Shown: positions 15,609 through 22,394, counted from the first letter of the stretch. The stretch: DNA of 64,000 nucleotides from Desulfonatronum lacustre DSM 10312 (GCF_000519265.1 NZ_KI912608.1:2513313-2577312), one strand, 5' to 3'. Program-made: numbers and translations. Notes: generated by a model not told the origin, from the letters alone.

Positions 15609-15669
15609 CGGGCACCCGGCGCAGGTGGAGCCGGGATGCGGAAAGTGACCAATAATCGATGCCGATCAT

Positions 15670-15720
15670 GATTTCGATACCGATCCGGAGCGCCCGTGGT
15701 TCGAGCACAAATTTGCCCTG
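15670..15720 (+). repeat. Fragment shared with element A1 and its flank
   Basis: 47 of 51 bases match 2996-3046, beginning in the hexamer arm (GATTTCGATACCGATCC) and continuing into non-repeat sequence (GAGCGCCCGTGGTTCGA). Both copies translate in one frame as FDTDPERPWFE followed by N/H-K-I/F-AL, so the shared part could also be the tail of a protein-coding unit; here the frame stays open to a TAG at 15763. Confidence 0.75.
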
Positions 15721-15961
15721 ATCAATGATCCAGATACGATTGCCTCCATTCCAAAAGTAGTTTAGTGCTTTCAACAGTTAGCACTATATGGGGCTTCCGA
15801 AGCCAGTACCGGAATTTGACGATGGCTTCCCGATATGCGTGATGACGATCAGGAGGGACACTTGGCCTTCAAGGCCTTCGTCAAAAATGATCACGGATGC
15901 GTCCATCATTTCCTCCGAGGTTGGCTTTATGCCCCGCACTTGTGATGATTATACGGCTGCC

Positions 15962-16001
15962 GCATAAAGCTGACTTCAGGAGAAGGCATAAAGCTGACTT
16001 C
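15962..16001 (+). repeat. Two direct 16-bp repeats (IS-end-like)
   Basis: GCATAAAGCTGACTTC occurs at 15962-15977 and 15986-16001. A 14/16 inverted match, GAGGTCAGCTTTGTGC, lies at 21471-21486 on the far side of the cassette array. These may be ends of lost insertion sequences. Confidence 0.5.
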
Positions 16002-16141
16002 GGAGTCATGAAGGATTTGACAGACTTTTCTCAATAAGCTGAAATAACGTGGCAAATGCGGAAAATTTTTTCAAAAATTGCTTGCCGAATCAGCTGGTGT
16101 TAAGGTCGGGAATTTGGAGGGGCGGATTTTTGCGAGTTCCG

Positions 16142-16147
16142 TATAAT
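16142..16147 (+). promoter_or_regulatory. Possible -10 box driving the cassette array
   Basis: A perfect TATAAT sits just before the first cassette boundary (GTTAGCC at 16154). No good -35 at 17-bp spacing is visible; TTGGAG at 16114 is too far. It would act as a Pc-like promoter if functional. Confidence 0.3.
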
Positions 16148-16193
16148 AACACTGTTAGCCTGAAGTAAAAATTCAGATTTAAGTGAGATCAAT

Positions 16194-16979
16194 ATGGAAG
16201 AGCAGTACTTAGAAATATTCCTGGAGCCAATTCGGAAGTGCATGGATTACAAGCCTAAACTAGGGAATGCCTCAGGGAATGGTGTAGACCTGCAGGGTTT
16301 CCAGGAGCTTTATGGAGCAGATCCTTTTTACGCATGGATAGGGCTTAACAGTGACTTAATGTACGCGGCGCACAAGGCGGCCGGTGGGATGACATCTATT
16401 TATCGTCAAATAGGGATTGGCTGCGAGCGGCTGTTCCGAAAGATTATTATAGATATGACAGCATATTCTGACCCTAGGCTAGCTGAGTGGTCTTATACAG
16501 CTCAAACTAGAGCGGGAGGAAATAAAAAACTGAGCCTAGATGGCAGACTTGAACTTTCGGAAATTGCAAGTGATGAGTTAAAGGGTAGAGTCGATAACTG
16601 GCTCAGGCAATACTGCGACGAACTTGGTGTTGAACATCCAAAATACGGCGTGGTTTTCGAGGTTCGACAAGGGTATAAGAGTAAAGATAGCAAACGCCAA
16701 AATGGCGATATTGATAACGCAGCCGTGGCTTGGTCAAAAGGATACTTTCCAGTTTTCGCTATTTTCTCGTCACAAATTGATAGAGATATCGTTCTTAGGT
16801 ATAGGAATAGCAGCTGTGGCATCTTGGTGGGCCAAGTTAACGATAATCCAAATATTTCCTTGTTCGCATTTTTTGATCAGATCCTTGGGTTTGATTTGGC
16901 TGGGTTCTTTGAAAGGAATTCAGATTACTTGAAAGGCGAAATAGAAAACGTGTTAGAACATCTACTGAGTGCAGAGTAA
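16194..16979 (+). CDS. Putative type II restriction endonuclease
   Basis: A 261-residue protein ending one base into the methyltransferase gene (TAATG). The centre has FEVRQGYKSKDSKRQN at residues 155-170, which resembles the E-x(n)-K core of PD-(D/E)XK endonucleases and the KSKDSKRQNGDI strand seen in several type II enzymes; it is followed by PVFAIFSSQIDRDIVLRYR. I cannot name the recognition site. Coupling with an adenine/cytosine-type methylase in one operon and one cassette is the main support for the call. No helix-turn-helix controller precedes it. Confidence 0.65.
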   Translation: MEEQYLEIFLEPIRKCMDYKPKLGNASGNGVDLQGFQELYGADPFYAWIGLNSDLMYAAHKAAGGMTSIYRQIGIGCERLFRKIIIDMTAYSDPRLAEWSYTAQTRAGGNKKLSLDGRLELSEIASDELKGRVDNWLRQYCDELGVEHPKYGVVFEVRQGYKSKDSKRQNGDIDNAAVAWSKGYFPVFAIFSSQIDRDIVLRYRNSSCGILVGQVNDNPNISLFAFFDQILGFDLAGFFERNSDYLKGEIENVLEHLLSAE

Positions 16980-18199
16980 TGACAGAAGTGGCTCAAAGGT
17001 CAGATTATACATTTAAGTTCAACAAGAATATCGGCCGTCATGGCTGGCTTAGACTAACGCCAGCATATTCGGTTAAGTTGGTGGAGGAGCTTGTTGAAGA
17101 AACTCCGCGCAACGCAATGATATTAGATCCATTTTCCGGAACAGGGACTACAGGTGTCTGTGCCGCTGAATCAGGAATGCATTCTCACCTTTTCGACATA
17201 AATCCGTTTCTTATTTGGTTTGGTAATGCCAAGTGTGCAAAGTTCAATAAATCTGATTTAGATAAGACCAGGGGCCGGGTTTATAAGTTACTTTCAAGCC
17301 TTCAGCTCCAAGCAAATGAAGAAAACTGGGTTCCGCCAATTCATAACATTGAGCGGTGGTGGTGTGGTCATACACTTCCAATACTGTCGGGGCTTAGGGC
17401 TCTTATTGTAAAGGAGTTTGGAGAGCCCGGTGAATGCAAATATGCAAATCTAGTGTGGATTTCTTTCTGTCGGCTAATCATAGAGACGTCTTCAGCAGCA
17501 TTTAATCATGTCTCTATGTCATTTAAATGTGGTGTGACTAGGTTTGAGGTAAAGCAGATTGAAAAGATTTTCTGTGATGTATTGGAGCTTATTTTAGAGA
17601 GCGCCAAGTACGAGTTCCCGGGTACAGTTTCAGTTTTTTATGCTGACTCTCGCGAAATGCCAAGTATCGACGACTGCACATATGACCATGTCATAACATC
17701 GCCGCCTTATCCTAATAGAATGAGCTATATAAGGGAGCTTCGTCCATATATGTATTGGACAAAGTTCCTTAATGAGGCGAAAGAGGCTGGGCAGCTCGAC
17801 TGGAAGGCAATTGGTGGCACTTGGGGTACCGCAACCAGCAAGCTAAAAGAATGGTGTGCAGACAACGTTATCTTGCCAGAAGAGTTGTATATAACGTGCG
17901 AAAAGATCAGCCGGTGTGAGAATAAAAATGCAGACTTAATGGGAAGGTATGTGCATAAATACTTTCATGATATGCATCTACACTTTGCGGCGCTTAGGCA
18001 AAGGTTAAGCGTGGATGCGAAAGTAGATTACATAGTTGGAAACTCCACCTTCTACGGCGTACATGTTAATTCGGAGTCTTTGTTTGAAGAGTCACTTCGT
18101 ATGCTTGGTTATCAAGAAATTCATTCAAGAGTGGTAAGAAAACGCAACAGCAAAAAAGAGCTATTCGAGTTTTGCGTCACTGCCAGATGGTATGGCTAA
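16979..18199 (+). CDS. DNA methyltransferase (N4-cytosine/N6-adenine type)
   Basis: A 406-residue AdoMet-dependent DNA methylase. Motif X-like GWLRLTPAYSVKLVEELVEE comes first, then motif I DPFSGTGTTG (residues 50-59), a variable region of about 150 residues likely to be the target-recognition part, and motif IV TSPPYPNRMSY with SPPY at 241-244. The SPPY form is most often seen in N4-cytosine enzymes. The order X-I-TRD-IV corresponds to the alpha-like arrangement. Its stop codon TAA is formed by the R'' end of attC1 (GGCTAAC). It presumably protects host sites from the upstream nuclease. Confidence 0.85.
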   Translation: MTEVAQRSDYTFKFNKNIGRHGWLRLTPAYSVKLVEELVEETPRNAMILDPFSGTGTTGVCAAESGMHSHLFDINPFLIWFGNAKCAKFNKSDLDKTRGRVYKLLSSLQLQANEENWVPPIHNIERWWCGHTLPILSGLRALIVKEFGEPGECKYANLVWISFCRLIIETSSAAFNHVSMSFKCGVTRFEVKQIEKIFCDVLELILESAKYEFPGTVSVFYADSREMPSIDDCTYDHVITSPPYPNRMSYIRELRPYMYWTKFLNEAKEAGQLDWKAIGGTWGTATSKLKEWCADNVILPEELYITCEKISRCENKNADLMGRYVHKYFHDMHLHFAALRQRLSVDAKVDYIVGNSTFYGVHVNSESLFEESLRMLGYQEIHSRVVRKRNSKKELFEFCVTARWYG

Positions 18200-18264
18200 C
18201 AAAGCGCTGCACTCGGACAAAGTTTCCGCTGCGCTTCAACTTTGCCGGTGAGCGCGGCGTAGCC
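18195..18264 (+). repeat. attC site 1
   Basis: Starts GCTAACA, ends GCGGCGTAGCC. Inner arms CACTCGGACAAAGTT and AACTTTGCCGGTGAG pair with a few unpaired bases, the extrahelical-base pattern of attC. The right end lacks one T of the expected GTTAGCC, so the crossover triplet is damaged; excision of this junction may be impaired. Confidence 0.8.
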
Positions 18265-18280
18265 AAAATATGGGAGTCCC

Positions 18281-18646
18281 ATGAGCCCTAATAAATATAT
18301 CGTTGTCAGCTCACATGAGAGTGAGTTCCCTAAGCCCATCACCTTTAAAAAAGGTGATCCTCTTCTTGTAGGTGAAGAATACGAAGGGTCTGAGGGTTGG
18401 GATAACTGGTTCCTCTGCACTACACCTGGGCAAGAGCCCGGCTGGGTTCCTGGTCAGATTATCGAGCGTATCGAGAACTCACACGCTAGAGCACTTGATG
18501 ACTACACGGCAAAAGAGCTAAATGTTCTGGAAGGAGAGCTACTCATTGGTTCAAGGGTTTTGAATGGCTGGCTATGGTGTGAAAAATCGGCCAGTACAGA
18601 ATCAGGGTGGGTGCCATTAGAGAACCTTAAAGAGGTTGCGGAGTGA
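18281..18646 (+). CDS. Double SH3-domain protein (cassette 2)
   Basis: A 121-residue protein made of two SH3-like folds: residues 1-60 (YIVVSSHESEFPKPITFKKGD, then GWVPGQII) and 66-118 (RALDDYTAKELNVLEGEL, then GWVPLENL). Both show the eukaryote-like ALDDY...L.. and W..GWVP pattern. No enzymatic domain or signal peptide. As a cassette-borne gene it could be an adaptor, an immunity-type or a binding protein; that is inference. Confidence 0.78.
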   Translation: MSPNKYIVVSSHESEFPKPITFKKGDPLLVGEEYEGSEGWDNWFLCTTPGQEPGWVPGQIIERIENSHARALDDYTAKELNVLEGELLIGSRVLNGWLWCEKSASTESGWVPLENLKEVAE

Positions 18647-18653
18647 ATTCGTG

Positions 18654-18728
18654 GCTAACAAGGCCATCAAATTTGCTCCCTGCTGTCGCCGGACGCTCGT
18701 TCCTCGCGCCGTTTATGGCGGCGTTAGC
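18654..18728 (+). repeat. attC site 2
   Basis: About 75 bases with perfect complementary ends GCTAAC and GTTAGC. Inner arms GGCCATCAAA and CGTTTATGGC pair, and the middle is GC-rich. This is the most canonical of the three sites. Confidence 0.88.
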
Positions 18729-18798
18729 ATGCACTATGTCGGTAGTTCAGTACGCATGAATAGATTTCATATTACACCATCAACGTCAGGTAAATATT

Positions 18799-19884
18799 AT
18801 GTATAGCTTAAGAACTAATATAGGTACCGGAGATATAGTGTTAATTAGGGGGCCAGCTAAACACAGCAAGATAATATCTAAAGTCACCAAAGGCCATTTT
18901 TCACATGCCTATCTAGCTCTAGGTGAGTCACAGATGATAGAGGCAATAGGTAGCGGTGTTCAATATACTAGCTGCTTGAGGTTTGCTGTAGAAGATAAAT
19001 CAAATATAGCAGTTTTAAGGCCATTGTTCAAAGACGACTCTCAAGCTCATGAAGTGCGTTCAAATATAAGGGATATTGCGAAGGGACACCAAAGCAGAGG
19101 CTATGATTTTATTGGTGCGATCCTAGCAGTATTGGAAAGAAAGAAGACAAAAAAATCAGAGAAATATTTTTGCTCTCAACTCGTCGCTAGTATTTTTCGG
19201 GAGGCTGGCTTTCCCTTGTTTGAGAAGGAAGACCACCTTGTCACACCAAATGACTTTTTAAGATGCTCGCTCCTTTTTGATATCACAAATGATTCAGTAG
19301 GCCAAGTGCCAGATTATCTCGCCAAGCGGAAGATTAAGAACGGAATACGAATACCACTTCTCGACAAAGGAGGGGAAACAACATCTGAAAACGCTTTATT
19401 ACTTAGAAAGCTTCTTAAGAAATCAAAGAATATCTTTTTACAGCATGGTCTAAAACCGCCAAACAAAATGTATGATCTTGTTGATGCTATAACCGATCCG
19501 GCGAATTTAAGCTTTGCGGCAGAGCTCGATAGCAAGATCACAAAATTATACGACGAACTAAACATTAATAGTCATCTAGCATCACAGTGTACAGGTGCGC
19601 TAGGCGATATGGAAGAGTTATGGAAAGAACTGAACGAATATGGCCAGCCATTCGCAATAGACGAGATGAAGTGGATTATCGACAGATTAAATTTATTGAA
19701 GCTCCGATTAACTGATTTAAGGGAATACGAGCATATGTATGCGTTAGTTTACGAGACAAACAAACTTAGTTATGCTTGTAGGCAACGGGATTACTATAGG
19801 ATCATTATAAAAAATGTAATAGAGGTAGCGGCTGACTTAAATAATAGAATTGACTTAATAAAAAAGTATCTGGATGAATGCTAA
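18799..19884 (+). CDS. Permuted NlpC/P60 (YiiX/YebB-like) hydrolase with helical tail (cassette 3)
   Basis: A 361-residue protein. Residues 8-165 look like a permuted papain-fold NlpC/P60 domain: GDIVLIRGP, KGHFSHAYLALG with His36, MIEAIGSGVQ, then the Cys motif YFCSQLVASIFREAGF with Cys125. This order (His before Cys) is the YiiX/YebB type, which acts on lipids or peptides rather than on cell-wall stems. The remaining 190 residues are predicted helical with no recognised family (EELWKELNEYGQPFAIDEMKW). Strongly AT-rich. The natural substrate is unknown; an N-terminal signal is absent, so a cytoplasmic role is likely. Confidence 0.75.
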   Translation: MYSLRTNIGTGDIVLIRGPAKHSKIISKVTKGHFSHAYLALGESQMIEAIGSGVQYTSCLRFAVEDKSNIAVLRPLFKDDSQAHEVRSNIRDIAKGHQSRGYDFIGAILAVLERKKTKKSEKYFCSQLVASIFREAGFPLFEKEDHLVTPNDFLRCSLLFDITNDSVGQVPDYLAKRKIKNGIRIPLLDKGGETTSENALLLRKLLKKSKNIFLQHGLKPPNKMYDLVDAITDPANLSFAAELDSKITKLYDELNINSHLASQCTGALGDMEELWKELNEYGQPFAIDEMKWIIDRLNLLKLRLTDLREYEHMYALVYETNKLSYACRQRDYYRIIIKNVIEVAADLNNRIDLIKKYLDEC

Positions 19885-19986
19885 CAAGGGCATGCACACG
19901 GACACCGAACCACGCGGGGCACATATGGTGACTTCCAGTGTGGCTCCTTGGCCGCGTGGTTCGGTGCCGGTGATGCCCGGCGTTCC
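19880..19986 (+). repeat. attC site 3
   Basis: About 107 bases from GCTAACA to GGCGTTCCC. Long inner arms (GGGCATGCACACGGACACCGAACC region against GGTTCGGTGCCGGTGATGCCC, quoted in parts) pair well. The last bases after the crossover G are TTCCCGC, that is, flanking chromosomal sequence, as expected for the final cassette. Confidence 0.82.
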
Positions 19987-20012
19987 CGCGACGCTTCCGC
20001 GTCGCGGGAACG
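19981..20012 (+). repeat. Perfect 14-bp stem hairpin at the right array boundary
   Basis: CGTTCCCGCGACGC and GCGTCGCGGGAACG separated by TTCC. The first bases overlap the attC3 right end. With no T-run it is not a standard terminator. Confidence 0.75.
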
Positions 20013-20108
20013 GGCCGGGGCTGACTGCGTCCAGTCGGTTGCCCTCGCAGCGGAAGCCGCGTCGAGAATGTTTACTTATACGTCAGGACATCTTGAATAG
20101 GAGCATGC

Positions 20109-20798
20109 ATGCTTCAAGAAGCCCGCGACACACTCCGCGAGTTCGCCAGCGAAACGGACGCGAAGCATCTGCAACGGTTTTTCAAGACCAGTCCCGGTGA
20201 ATACGGAGAAGGAGACCGGTTCCTCGGCGTCCGTGTCCCCGCCACCCGCAAGGTCGCCCGGATGTTCCGGGCAATGCCCCTGGCCGACGCGCAAACCCTC
20301 CTGACCTCGGAAATACACGAGGAACGTCTCCTGGCCCTGCTGATTCTGATCGGTCGGTATCAGCGCGGGACCGCCGACCAGAAGCGGGAAATCTTCGATC
20401 TGTATCTCGCCAACACGCGCCATATCAACAACTGGGACCTCGTCGACGTCTCAGCCGAGCACGTGGTCGGCGCCCATCTTTGGGACAAAAGCCGCGCCCC
20501 GCTCTCCAACCTGGCCCGCTCCGCCGACCTCTGGGAACGGCGCATCGCGGTCATGGCCACCTTTCACTTCATCAAGATGAACCAGTTCGACGAGACGCTG
20601 CGGATCGCCGAACTCCTCCTTTCCGACTCCCACGACCTGATCCACAAGGCCGTGGGCTGGATGCTCCGGGAAATCGGCAAGCGGGATCTGGACGTGGAAG
20701 AGGATTTCCTGCGACGCCACCACCTGCACATGCCCAGAACCATGCTCCGGACGCCATCGAGAAATTTCCCGAGGACAAACGACGCCGGTATTTGCTGA
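20109..20798 (+). CDS. alkD: DNA alkylation repair protein, AlkD-like, frameshifted 3' end
   Basis: A 229-residue HEAT-repeat DNA glycosylase-like protein. Conserved parts are FLGVRVPATRKVAR, HEERLLALLILI, INNWDLVDVSAEHVVGAHL and HKAVGWMLREIGKRD, matching AlkD enzymes that remove alkylated purines. The family normally ends with MPRTMLRYAIEKFPE and a basic tail. Here frame 1 becomes RTPSRNFPRTNDAGIC after MPRTMLR, while the next frame reads DAIEKFPEDKRRRYLLKG and stops at 20824. One base is missing near 20750. Either a recent frameshift or a sequencing error. Confidence 0.8.
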   Translation: MLQEARDTLREFASETDAKHLQRFFKTSPGEYGEGDRFLGVRVPATRKVARMFRAMPLADAQTLLTSEIHEERLLALLILIGRYQRGTADQKREIFDLYLANTRHINNWDLVDVSAEHVVGAHLWDKSRAPLSNLARSADLWERRIAVMATFHFIKMNQFDETLRIAELLLSDSHDLIHKAVGWMLREIGKRDLDVEEDFLRRHHLHMPRTMLRTPSRNFPRTNDAGIC

Positions 20799-21190
20799 AA
20801 GGGCGGGGTGATGGCAGGTGTTGACCGCATCGCCACTTGGACTGCGCATCGCATTGAGTAAAATTACTCAATAAAAAAAACGCAAAATCATTCGCGCATT
20901 GTGGCCTGAATCCGGCTTCAATCCTTCACCATGATCATCAGTCTGTTGCACCATGTCGATATCTTTTTTACAAGATTTCAGCCAAGTTCAACGCTCGCCG
21001 AAATAATTTGGGTTCATCCGGCTGGAGCGTACTTATGAAAAATGAACCGCCCGCTTCGCTCAAGGCCCGGAGCACGCCAAGAAAATATTTTTTAACCTTC
21101 CGCTGGAATGATGCGGAAGCCAAAAGATTTCACGCCTGACGGCGATGATTCTTCCTCCCGACAGGGAGGGTCCGTGCGGGCAGGCGGTTG
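20799..21190. other. Intergenic debris
   Basis: About 390 bases after alkD. It holds a small palindrome ATTGAGTAAAATTACTCAAT at 20853-20872, followed by an A-run rather than a T-run, so not a plus-strand terminator. Otherwise only untraceable sequence leading into the DUF4143 relic. Confidence 0.4.
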
Positions 21191-21352
21191 CTGGCCATCG
21201 AGATCAAAAGCGGTCGCCGCCGCGACGCCCTGCCCGGCATGGCCGCCTTCGTCGAAGCCTTCCAGCCGGACCGCACCCTGCTGGTCGGCGGCGACGGTAT
21301 CAAGCTGGAAGCCTTTCTGTCGCGTTCGGTTATGGAGTGGGTGCAGGCGTGA
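21191..21352 (+). pseudogene. C-terminal relic of a DUF4143 ATPase
   Basis: The frame reads LAIEIKSGRRRDALPGMAAF, then VEAFQPDRTLLVGGDGIKLE and AFLSRSVMEWVQA before TGA at 21350. This is the usual end of DUF4143 ATPases (AIEIKSG and LLVGGDGI-LE motifs). Nothing upstream restores the ATPase domain, so it is a truncated remnant. It differs from the C-terminus of the intact gene at 13817, thus not a simple duplicate. Confidence 0.72.
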
Positions 21353-21703
21353 GGGCTTTGGGTGCCACCGTGCAACTCGTCGAGGGCGTCGCGGCGTGGC
21401 AATATCTTTCTTGCAAGGGGTCCACCATACTCTGCGACGTCTAATAAAAATCTCGCCGCCCATTGCACGTGAGGTCAGCTTTGTGCATGTTTATTTCGTG
21501 TACTCTTCCAGTGCTGTAGTATATTGCTGACTTTGAGGGGGAGTAAAAAAAGCTAGCCTCTGGCGCGGGAGAGGGCGGTGGAGATGATAATGGATTTGCA
21601 TACGGGATGTTGCGAATAGGAATGATTCAGCTTGATAAAAGGCTTGAGTGATCGTGAGATAAGATGGTGAGAAATCTTGTTATACCTATGGAGAGTGACG
21701 TCT
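21353..21703. other. Gene-poor spacer with IS-end-like repeat
   Basis: 350 bases. GAGGTCAGCTTTGTGC at 21471-21486 is an inverted near-match to the direct repeats at 15962 and 15986. No gene seen. Confidence 0.4.
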
Positions 21704-22066
21704 GTGTTTGAAGTGTTGCGATATGATTGGAGGATTTATCGTTTGCTTCGTCGCATTGCCAAACAACGAGTTGGCATGATCATGCCTGGAAATGTCTGGG
21801 TGATTGAGTACGCGGCACCGATTAATGAAGAAAGTATGCCAATGGTTCAAACCTGCATACTGCGAGGGTGGATTGAAGTACTGCATCAGGGGGTGAATCA
21901 TTGTCGTCTAAATGAGAACGATTCGTTGCCTGAGAACCTGCAATTTAAGGAAACGCAAGATGTCTGGCGACTGACAGACGCCGGTTGGGCTGCGATCTAT
22001 CGCGCTCATCAACTATCGCTTCTTGGATTGGCACTATCGCTATTCGGAGTCATAGTTGCGCTCTAG
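21704..22066 (+). CDS. Hypothetical protein with C-terminal membrane helix
   Basis: About 120 residues if started at the GTG at 21704, which follows GGAG/GAG by 9-12 bases; a TTG at 21677 is also possible. The globular part contains RQRVGM-like and GNVWVIEYAAPI stretches and RLTDAGWAAIYRAHQ, followed by one terminal hydrophobic helix (LSLLGLALSLFGVIVAL). It looks like a tail-anchored protein. No family is recognised. Confidence 0.5.
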   Translation: MFEVLRYDWRIYRLLRRIAKQRVGMIMPGNVWVIEYAAPINEESMPMVQTCILRGWIEVLHQGVNHCRLNENDSLPENLQFKETQDVWRLTDAGWAAIYRAHQLSLLGLALSLFGVIVAL

Positions 22067-22394
22067 CCTAAGTTTCCTGATTATGCGTTGAATGGGAAAA
22101 AGGGCGTATCGTGCGCCGAGGTATCACCGGCTGGACCGGACTTCGGCCAGTCCTTCCGCAAGCGAGCTTGCTCCAGCACAGGCCAAAGCCGATCAGGCTC
22201 GAGACATTATCCGGACGGGCGAAAGGACCTCATAGCCATTCTTCCCCCAATTGACGCCAATAAACTGATAAGATGGGCTAAATTTCTTCAAATTGGCACC
22301 TTAGAGGCGCATAGGCGCACAAAGATTTCCATTTGAAAAAGCAGGCGGACGGGAGATTTCGAGGTTGAAGGTGCATGACAAAGGACGGCGGCAA
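22067..22394. other. Spacer before dinD
   Basis: About 330 bases, no gene recognised. AAGGA at 22381 serves as ribosome-binding site for dinD. Confidence 0.4.

Follow-up and report, generated by a model that had tools for sequence, protein, structure and literature searches.

The cassette array found in the chromosome of Desulfonatronum lacustre DSM 10312 (genome G000) is, very probably as regards both its anatomy and its origin, a defective integron that retains its attI site and belongs to a set of six such arrays in this genome. The textbook integron consists of a single attI beside a single intI. An earlier note on this DNA had described an integron cassette array without integrase in an anaerobe of the Desulfobacterota type. 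The host assignment was borne out and the integron nature of the array is upheld by its attC sites, its G|TT junctions and cassette starts that mirror their own R'' box. The absence of an integrase holds for the whole genome, but this description was incomplete: neither the attI site and the intI remnant, nor a gene-less fourth cassette, nor five further arrays had been noticed. As a genuine attI with an N-terminal remnant of intI has been kept, the array is more than an anonymous group of attC sites.

The features are listed below by their positions in the window, i.e. the whole stretch of 64,000 nucleotides of the D. lacustre DSM 10312 sequence that was analysed and on which all coordinates are based.

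15727 to 16154, + strand: attI platform (5' end of intI, direct repeats and attI), 430 bp, six chromosomal copies
15731 to 15906, - strand: intI remnant, a frameshifted N-terminal fragment divergent from the cassettes (tblastn; start codon placed at 15906 by inspection of the sequence)
15962 to 15977 and 15986 to 16001, + strand: two direct repeats GCATAAAGCTGACTTC, conserved across the platform alignment
16121 to 16156, + strand: attI core ...GCGAGTTCCGTATAATAACACTG|TT, crossover G16154/T16155; nearly all platform copies diverge right after GTT
16155 to 18259, + strand: cassette 1, two genes, type II restriction-modification; starts TTAGCC, and its own attC begins GGCTAAC (mirror rule)
16194 to 16979, + strand: type II restriction endonuclease (PADLOC REase_II PDLC03512, E 5.2e-73, 243.6 bits)
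16979 to 18199, + strand: type II DNA methyltransferase (Pfam N6_N4_Mtase, E 3.8e-8; PADLOC MTase_II, E 6.7e-26)
18194 to 18264, + strand: attC1 (model R1, 50.3 bits, E 1.6e-12); R' is G-TAGCC, with one T missing
18260 to 18723, + strand: cassette 2, SH3-domain protein, gene at 18281-18646 (Pfam SH3_2, E 1.7e-12)
18653 to 18729, + strand: attC2, with a weak stem (R1, 19.5 bits, E 1.7e-4, in an unfiltered local scan of 4.6 kb)
18724 to 19982, + strand: cassette 3, C92 permuted papain-like amidase, gene at 18799-19884 (Pfam Peptidase_C92, E 1.1e-7)
19879 to 19988, + strand: attC3 (R1, 31.9 bits, E 8.4e-7), whose bottom strand folds with three extrahelical bases
19983 to 20068, + strand: first half of cassette 4, gene-less, TTCCCGCGACGC..., with 96.7% identity to the intact gene-less cassettes found in G005
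20069 to 22125, + strand: 2-kb segment splitting cassette 4, with a DNA-alkylation-repair gene at 20109-20798
22126 to 22196, + strand: second half of cassette 4, matching the corresponding half of the gene-less G005 cassette at 94% identity over 71 bp

The 430 bp ahead of 16154 recur in G000 and in sister genomes, which are drafts or metagenome-assembled genomes (MAGs), and in reverse reading they encode the N-terminus of an integron integrase. Codons 19-61 of the IntI of one of these genomes, G006, match positions 15859-15731 with a frameshift (tblastn, E 1.5e-9, 58%). The attI core adjoins a divergent intI remnant, and the same attI lies next to a near-full, likewise divergent intI in G005:C4. 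Past ...TAATAACACTGTT, the sequence differs in nearly every platform copy (about 20 copies aligned). Only codons ~19-61 of the integrase gene, frameshifted, remain in the window; the element has no functional intI and is therefore a defective integron rather than a complete one. The two direct repeats GCATAAAGCTGACTTC may possibly be accessory sites for the integrase. No sigma-70 consensus promoter or terminator was found in 15700-16250. A short repeat (15639-15720) lies directly upstream of the platform; it has about 40 copies in G000 and is frequent in the genus. Many platform copies start near 15727, which would fit a discrete mobile element of 430 bp; this was rejected, the intI remnants ending at different codons and the flanks being different.

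In line with the earlier note, three attC sites in the same direction, all on the + strand, bound three AT-rich cassettes, an AT-rich gene lying immediately 5' of each site. Paired R and L boxes as well as extrahelical bases are present in all three, attC2 being weak. The covariance check proposed in the note recovers them with the scores listed above, given by a model (R1) trained solely on five attC sites from loci outside the window, whose E-values are rough; the scan that yielded attC1 and attC3 covered 163 kb. The first junction of the array is G16154|TT, where the note had placed it, whereas the last is G19982|TT, the claimed position 19983 being the first T. The cassette boundaries lie at G|TT and each cassette start is complementary to the R'' box of its own attC, with perfect mirrors in GTTAGCC/GGCTAAC, GTTAGCA/TGCTAAC and GTTCCCG/CGGGAAC. 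Among 13 cassettes of G000, 47 of the 52 variable bases match the cassette's own R'' (permutation mean 23.7; none of 100,000 permutations reached 47), whereas cassette starts compared with the attC of the upstream neighbour match at 14 of 28 only. Cassette 2 starts without one T, G|TAGCC, at 18259 (18259-18264); the same loss of one T is observed at a junction of the 1045-kb array described below, G|TAGGC (L125 4709-4784). An Rfam search gave no match, and neither a scan for the textbook RYYYAAC/GTTRRRY motifs nor a loosened version of it detected the attC sites of the window, the R boxes of these sites being divergent or damaged.

Cassette 1 carries adjacent endonuclease and methyltransferase genes, i.e. 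a type II restriction-modification system, and a related endonuclease in the viral contig L013 also adjoins a DNA methyltransferase-like gene, as judged from its translation. Plasmid homologues of the SH3 protein of cassette 2 showed no attC with model R1. Cassette 4, whose sequence reads TTCCCGCGACGC-TTCC-GCGTCGCGGGAAC..., has lost the 3' end of its attC; intact relatives occur about 10 times in G005, between other cassettes. The segment of the DNA-alkylation-repair gene (20108-20815) recurs with 95% identity at 2654.6 kb of this chromosome.

The genome of D. lacustre is a single contig of 3.76 Mb, 99.7% complete, and carries six exact attI cores, at 465, 1045, 1099, 2529 (the window), 2808 and 3491 kb. 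Each platform carries cassettes of its own next to a truncated intI; between the six copies, identity is 89% in the last 36 bp and 61-75% in the intI remnants. The note had suggested a search for intI and for further attC sites. No integron integrase passes the IntI cut-off in the complete chromosome, and the two tyrosine recombinases flagged by the IntI model are XerC/XerD-like and score far below this cut-off. All eight attC matches of a genome-wide R1 search (E up to 0.1) fall within the six arrays. The genes carried by these arrays include KAP/AAA (PDC-S59, two copies), FRG (PDC-S15), Schlafen-AlbA_2, HEPN, NYN-LOTUS, RES and PIN, many of which belong, by sequence, to families linked to defence or toxins. 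The proposal that such arrays are reservoirs of defence genes is partly supported: cassette 1 appears to be a type II restriction-modification system and several cassettes match defence or candidate-defence families. The 1099-kb array lies directly upstream of a chromosomal xerC-like gene (L126 5027-5974), and its last attC contains a dispersed CAGTCCGTTGAAAAACCCCCAATTGCTGCG-like repeat (L126 4780-4840) that is also found inside the intI of G005 (L129 2732-2966).

Within the genus, an IntI above the cut-off is encoded by G001, G005 and G006 and was not found in G000, G002, G003, G004 and G007, all of which except G000 are drafts. The IntI of G006 is full-length and its gene lies beside a platform match (G006:C18), whereas the intI genes of G005 and G001 are themselves interrupted within the N-terminal extension; both the G005:C4 and the G006:C18 proteins have phage-integrase and SAM-like domains. 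The intI remnants of the platform copies are truncated at codons ~60-138, and at codon 324 in G005:C23 (tblastn with the G006 IntI). At its N-terminus, the IntI of the genus is extended by about 130 aa (L119 368-1846), and nearly all remnants stop in or near this extension. A separate 'Deltaproteobacteria' MAG, whose only intI is broken, also has at least three occurrences of the attI core, one of them with a single mismatch. The same attI platform, with an apparent intI remnant, is present on a contig (L096, RZYD01000256) that has been binned, probably wrongly, into a 'Bacteroidia' MAG. The match to the attI core in L095 is a chance match within a coding gene, and G005:C4 was rejected as an empty site, its attI holding a gene-less cassette. 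More broadly, IntI proteins above the cut-off are encoded by 9 of 247 genomes of the order and by 107 of 297 sampled genomes of the phylum, and the view that integrons are rare in Desulfobacterota does not hold.

Three platforms of G000 have orthologues in sister genomes. The 1045-kb platform corresponds to G005:C4, with 87% identity in the flank at the 3' end of intI, 91% on the attI side, ending at GTT, and 84-90% over 2.9 kb downstream. In G000, 1.2 kb including the catalytic part of intI is missing, with 283 bp in its place; the integrase gene of this locus has therefore been kept in G005 and deleted in G000, and the two loci have no cassette in common. The 1099-kb platform and G007:C57 are 95.7% identical over 1.1 kb (flank, intI remnant and attI) with no gap of more than one base, so the truncation of this intI is older than the split between G000 and G007. 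The two sequences diverge exactly after GTT, HEPN and FRG cassettes following in G000 and a gene-less and an NYN cassette in G007. A common PIN cassette, 96.7% identical, resumes exactly at G|TTCGGT. The attC just before it in G007 is unrelated to that of G000, and the NYN cassette of G007 has an 87% identical relative in a different platform of G000. The 2808-kb platform and G004:C3 have 94% identical flanks and no attI-proximal cassette in common; extra DNA near the intI remnant makes the intI side of this pair less clean.

Since the truncation and the distal cassette of the 1099-kb locus are common to both genomes, while the attI-proximal cassettes differ between breakpoints lying exactly at G|TT, site-specific exchange seems to have continued at an attI of this type after the loss of the local intI, most simply through an integrase acting in trans. 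This reading draws on one clean orthologous pair (1099 kb/G007:C57), with which the less clean 2808-kb pair agrees; G007 being a draft MAG, 84% complete, the absence of intI from it proves little. Service in trans, taken alone, has a slightly better than even chance of being correct. That the six platforms are instead ordinary integrons, each built in cis by its own intI, degraded independently and frozen since that intI was lost, is unlikely. The differing end points of the remnants do point to independent losses, and both pseudogenes of intI and pseudo-integrons arising by duplication have been described (PMC2426708; Xanthomonas, PMC12444791), but frozen arrays would not account for a truncation common to G000 and G007 followed by different attI-proximal cassettes with exact G|TT breakpoints. 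Cassette differences between orthologues could also have arisen without site-specific recombination, through the homologous recombination or the transfer of entire array segments. The platform copies, about 75-90% alike, could pair, the same NYN cassette occupies one platform in G000 and another in G007, and the import of a whole segment from an intI-bearing strain could mimic the pattern expected from service in trans. Against this, such precision is not expected on the side without homology, yet both breakpoints lie exactly at G|TT, and the attC preceding the PIN cassette in G007 is unrelated to that of G000; we consider this route improbable. Much less probable still is that the array is a cluster of attC sites lacking an integron integrase (CALIN) that arose when a distant integrase placed cassettes off target, at a secondary site other than attI. 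This route has been proposed in the literature (PMC8618304) and G000 does lack intI, but the intI-attI anatomy contradicts it: the cassettes entered a conserved sequence that recurs in multiple copies, is flanked by divergent intI remnants and is identical to the attI beside the near-full intI of G005:C4.

According to the favoured reading, the platforms would have multiplied, in the simplest case, by duplication of an integron followed by independent losses of intI. The IntI tyrosine recombinase would have inserted cassettes between the G and the TT of attI, using the folded bottom strands of attC sites. One integrase, probably encoded at the ancestor of the 1045-kb locus, may have served several attI sites in trans, which would have made the local intI copies dispensable. 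The deletion of the serving intI in G000 would then have made the six arrays static, the attI-proximal 430 bp perhaps being kept for the expression of cassettes and/or as an acceptor for any incoming integrase. The chances are about even that these genomes had a distributed integron, in which one integrase acts in trans on many dispersed attI sites and several first-position cassettes, presumably expressed, are displayed at once. In such a system, dispensable local intI genes would decay and, once the last hub copy is lost, as in G000, the attI sites would stay ready for an incoming integrase.

Several of these components are already known, namely CALINs, intI pseudogenes, duplicated pseudo-integrons, long IntI proteins and gene-less cassettes. 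CALINs, i.e. attC cassettes with no integrase nearby, number 2,961 in RefSeq (IntegronFinder, PMC9024848), and the array of the window, with three clustered attC sites (at least two are needed) and no integron integrase nearby, can be classified among them. It resembles them in its attC-bounded cassettes and in the absence of a nearby integrase but differs in that G000 keeps a genuine attI and an intI remnant, six times in one genome. According to its authors, IntegronFinder does not detect attI sites outside class 1 (PMC9024848), so that the arrays of G000 would be filed as plain CALINs. The integrons and CALINs of Xanthomonas (PMC12444791) similarly display repeated erosion of intI with persisting arrays, as well as CALINs at several conserved loci. 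However, they have one platform (ilvD) per genome, their other CALINs are not described as carrying attI, and their arrays are stabler after the loss of intI, whereas here attI-proximal cassettes changed after local truncation. In the parts of Nemergut et al. 2008 (PMC2426708) drawn on here, about one third of intI genes are pseudogenes, some of them arising via within-genome duplication, and the IntI of clade 15 is about 120 aa longer than others, the IntI of the Desulfonatronum group being long as well; this survey concerned intI genes, and these same parts do not describe many attI sites of one family without any intI. The gene-less cassettes resemble the promoter cassettes of Vibrio (PMC11014356) in being short and devoid of ORFs, but form a single family, with about 10 copies in G005, including one directly at attI. 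A literal-phrase search of the open-access literature, with incomplete coverage, found no description of multiple attI sites, of Desulfonatronum integrons or of integrase-less arrays with attI. The presence of several attI platforms of one family in an integrase-free genome and the change of cassettes at attI after the truncation of intI appear to be new.

As standard tools ignore attI sites outside class 1, such systems would be missed. Several of the cassettes carry defence-like genes, and the arrays are therefore relevant to how anaerobes assemble their defence repertoires. Should IntI be able to act in trans on attI sites scattered through a genome, several first cassettes could be expressed simultaneously, and 'CALINs' may in many cases be acceptors that are still live and not dead relics.
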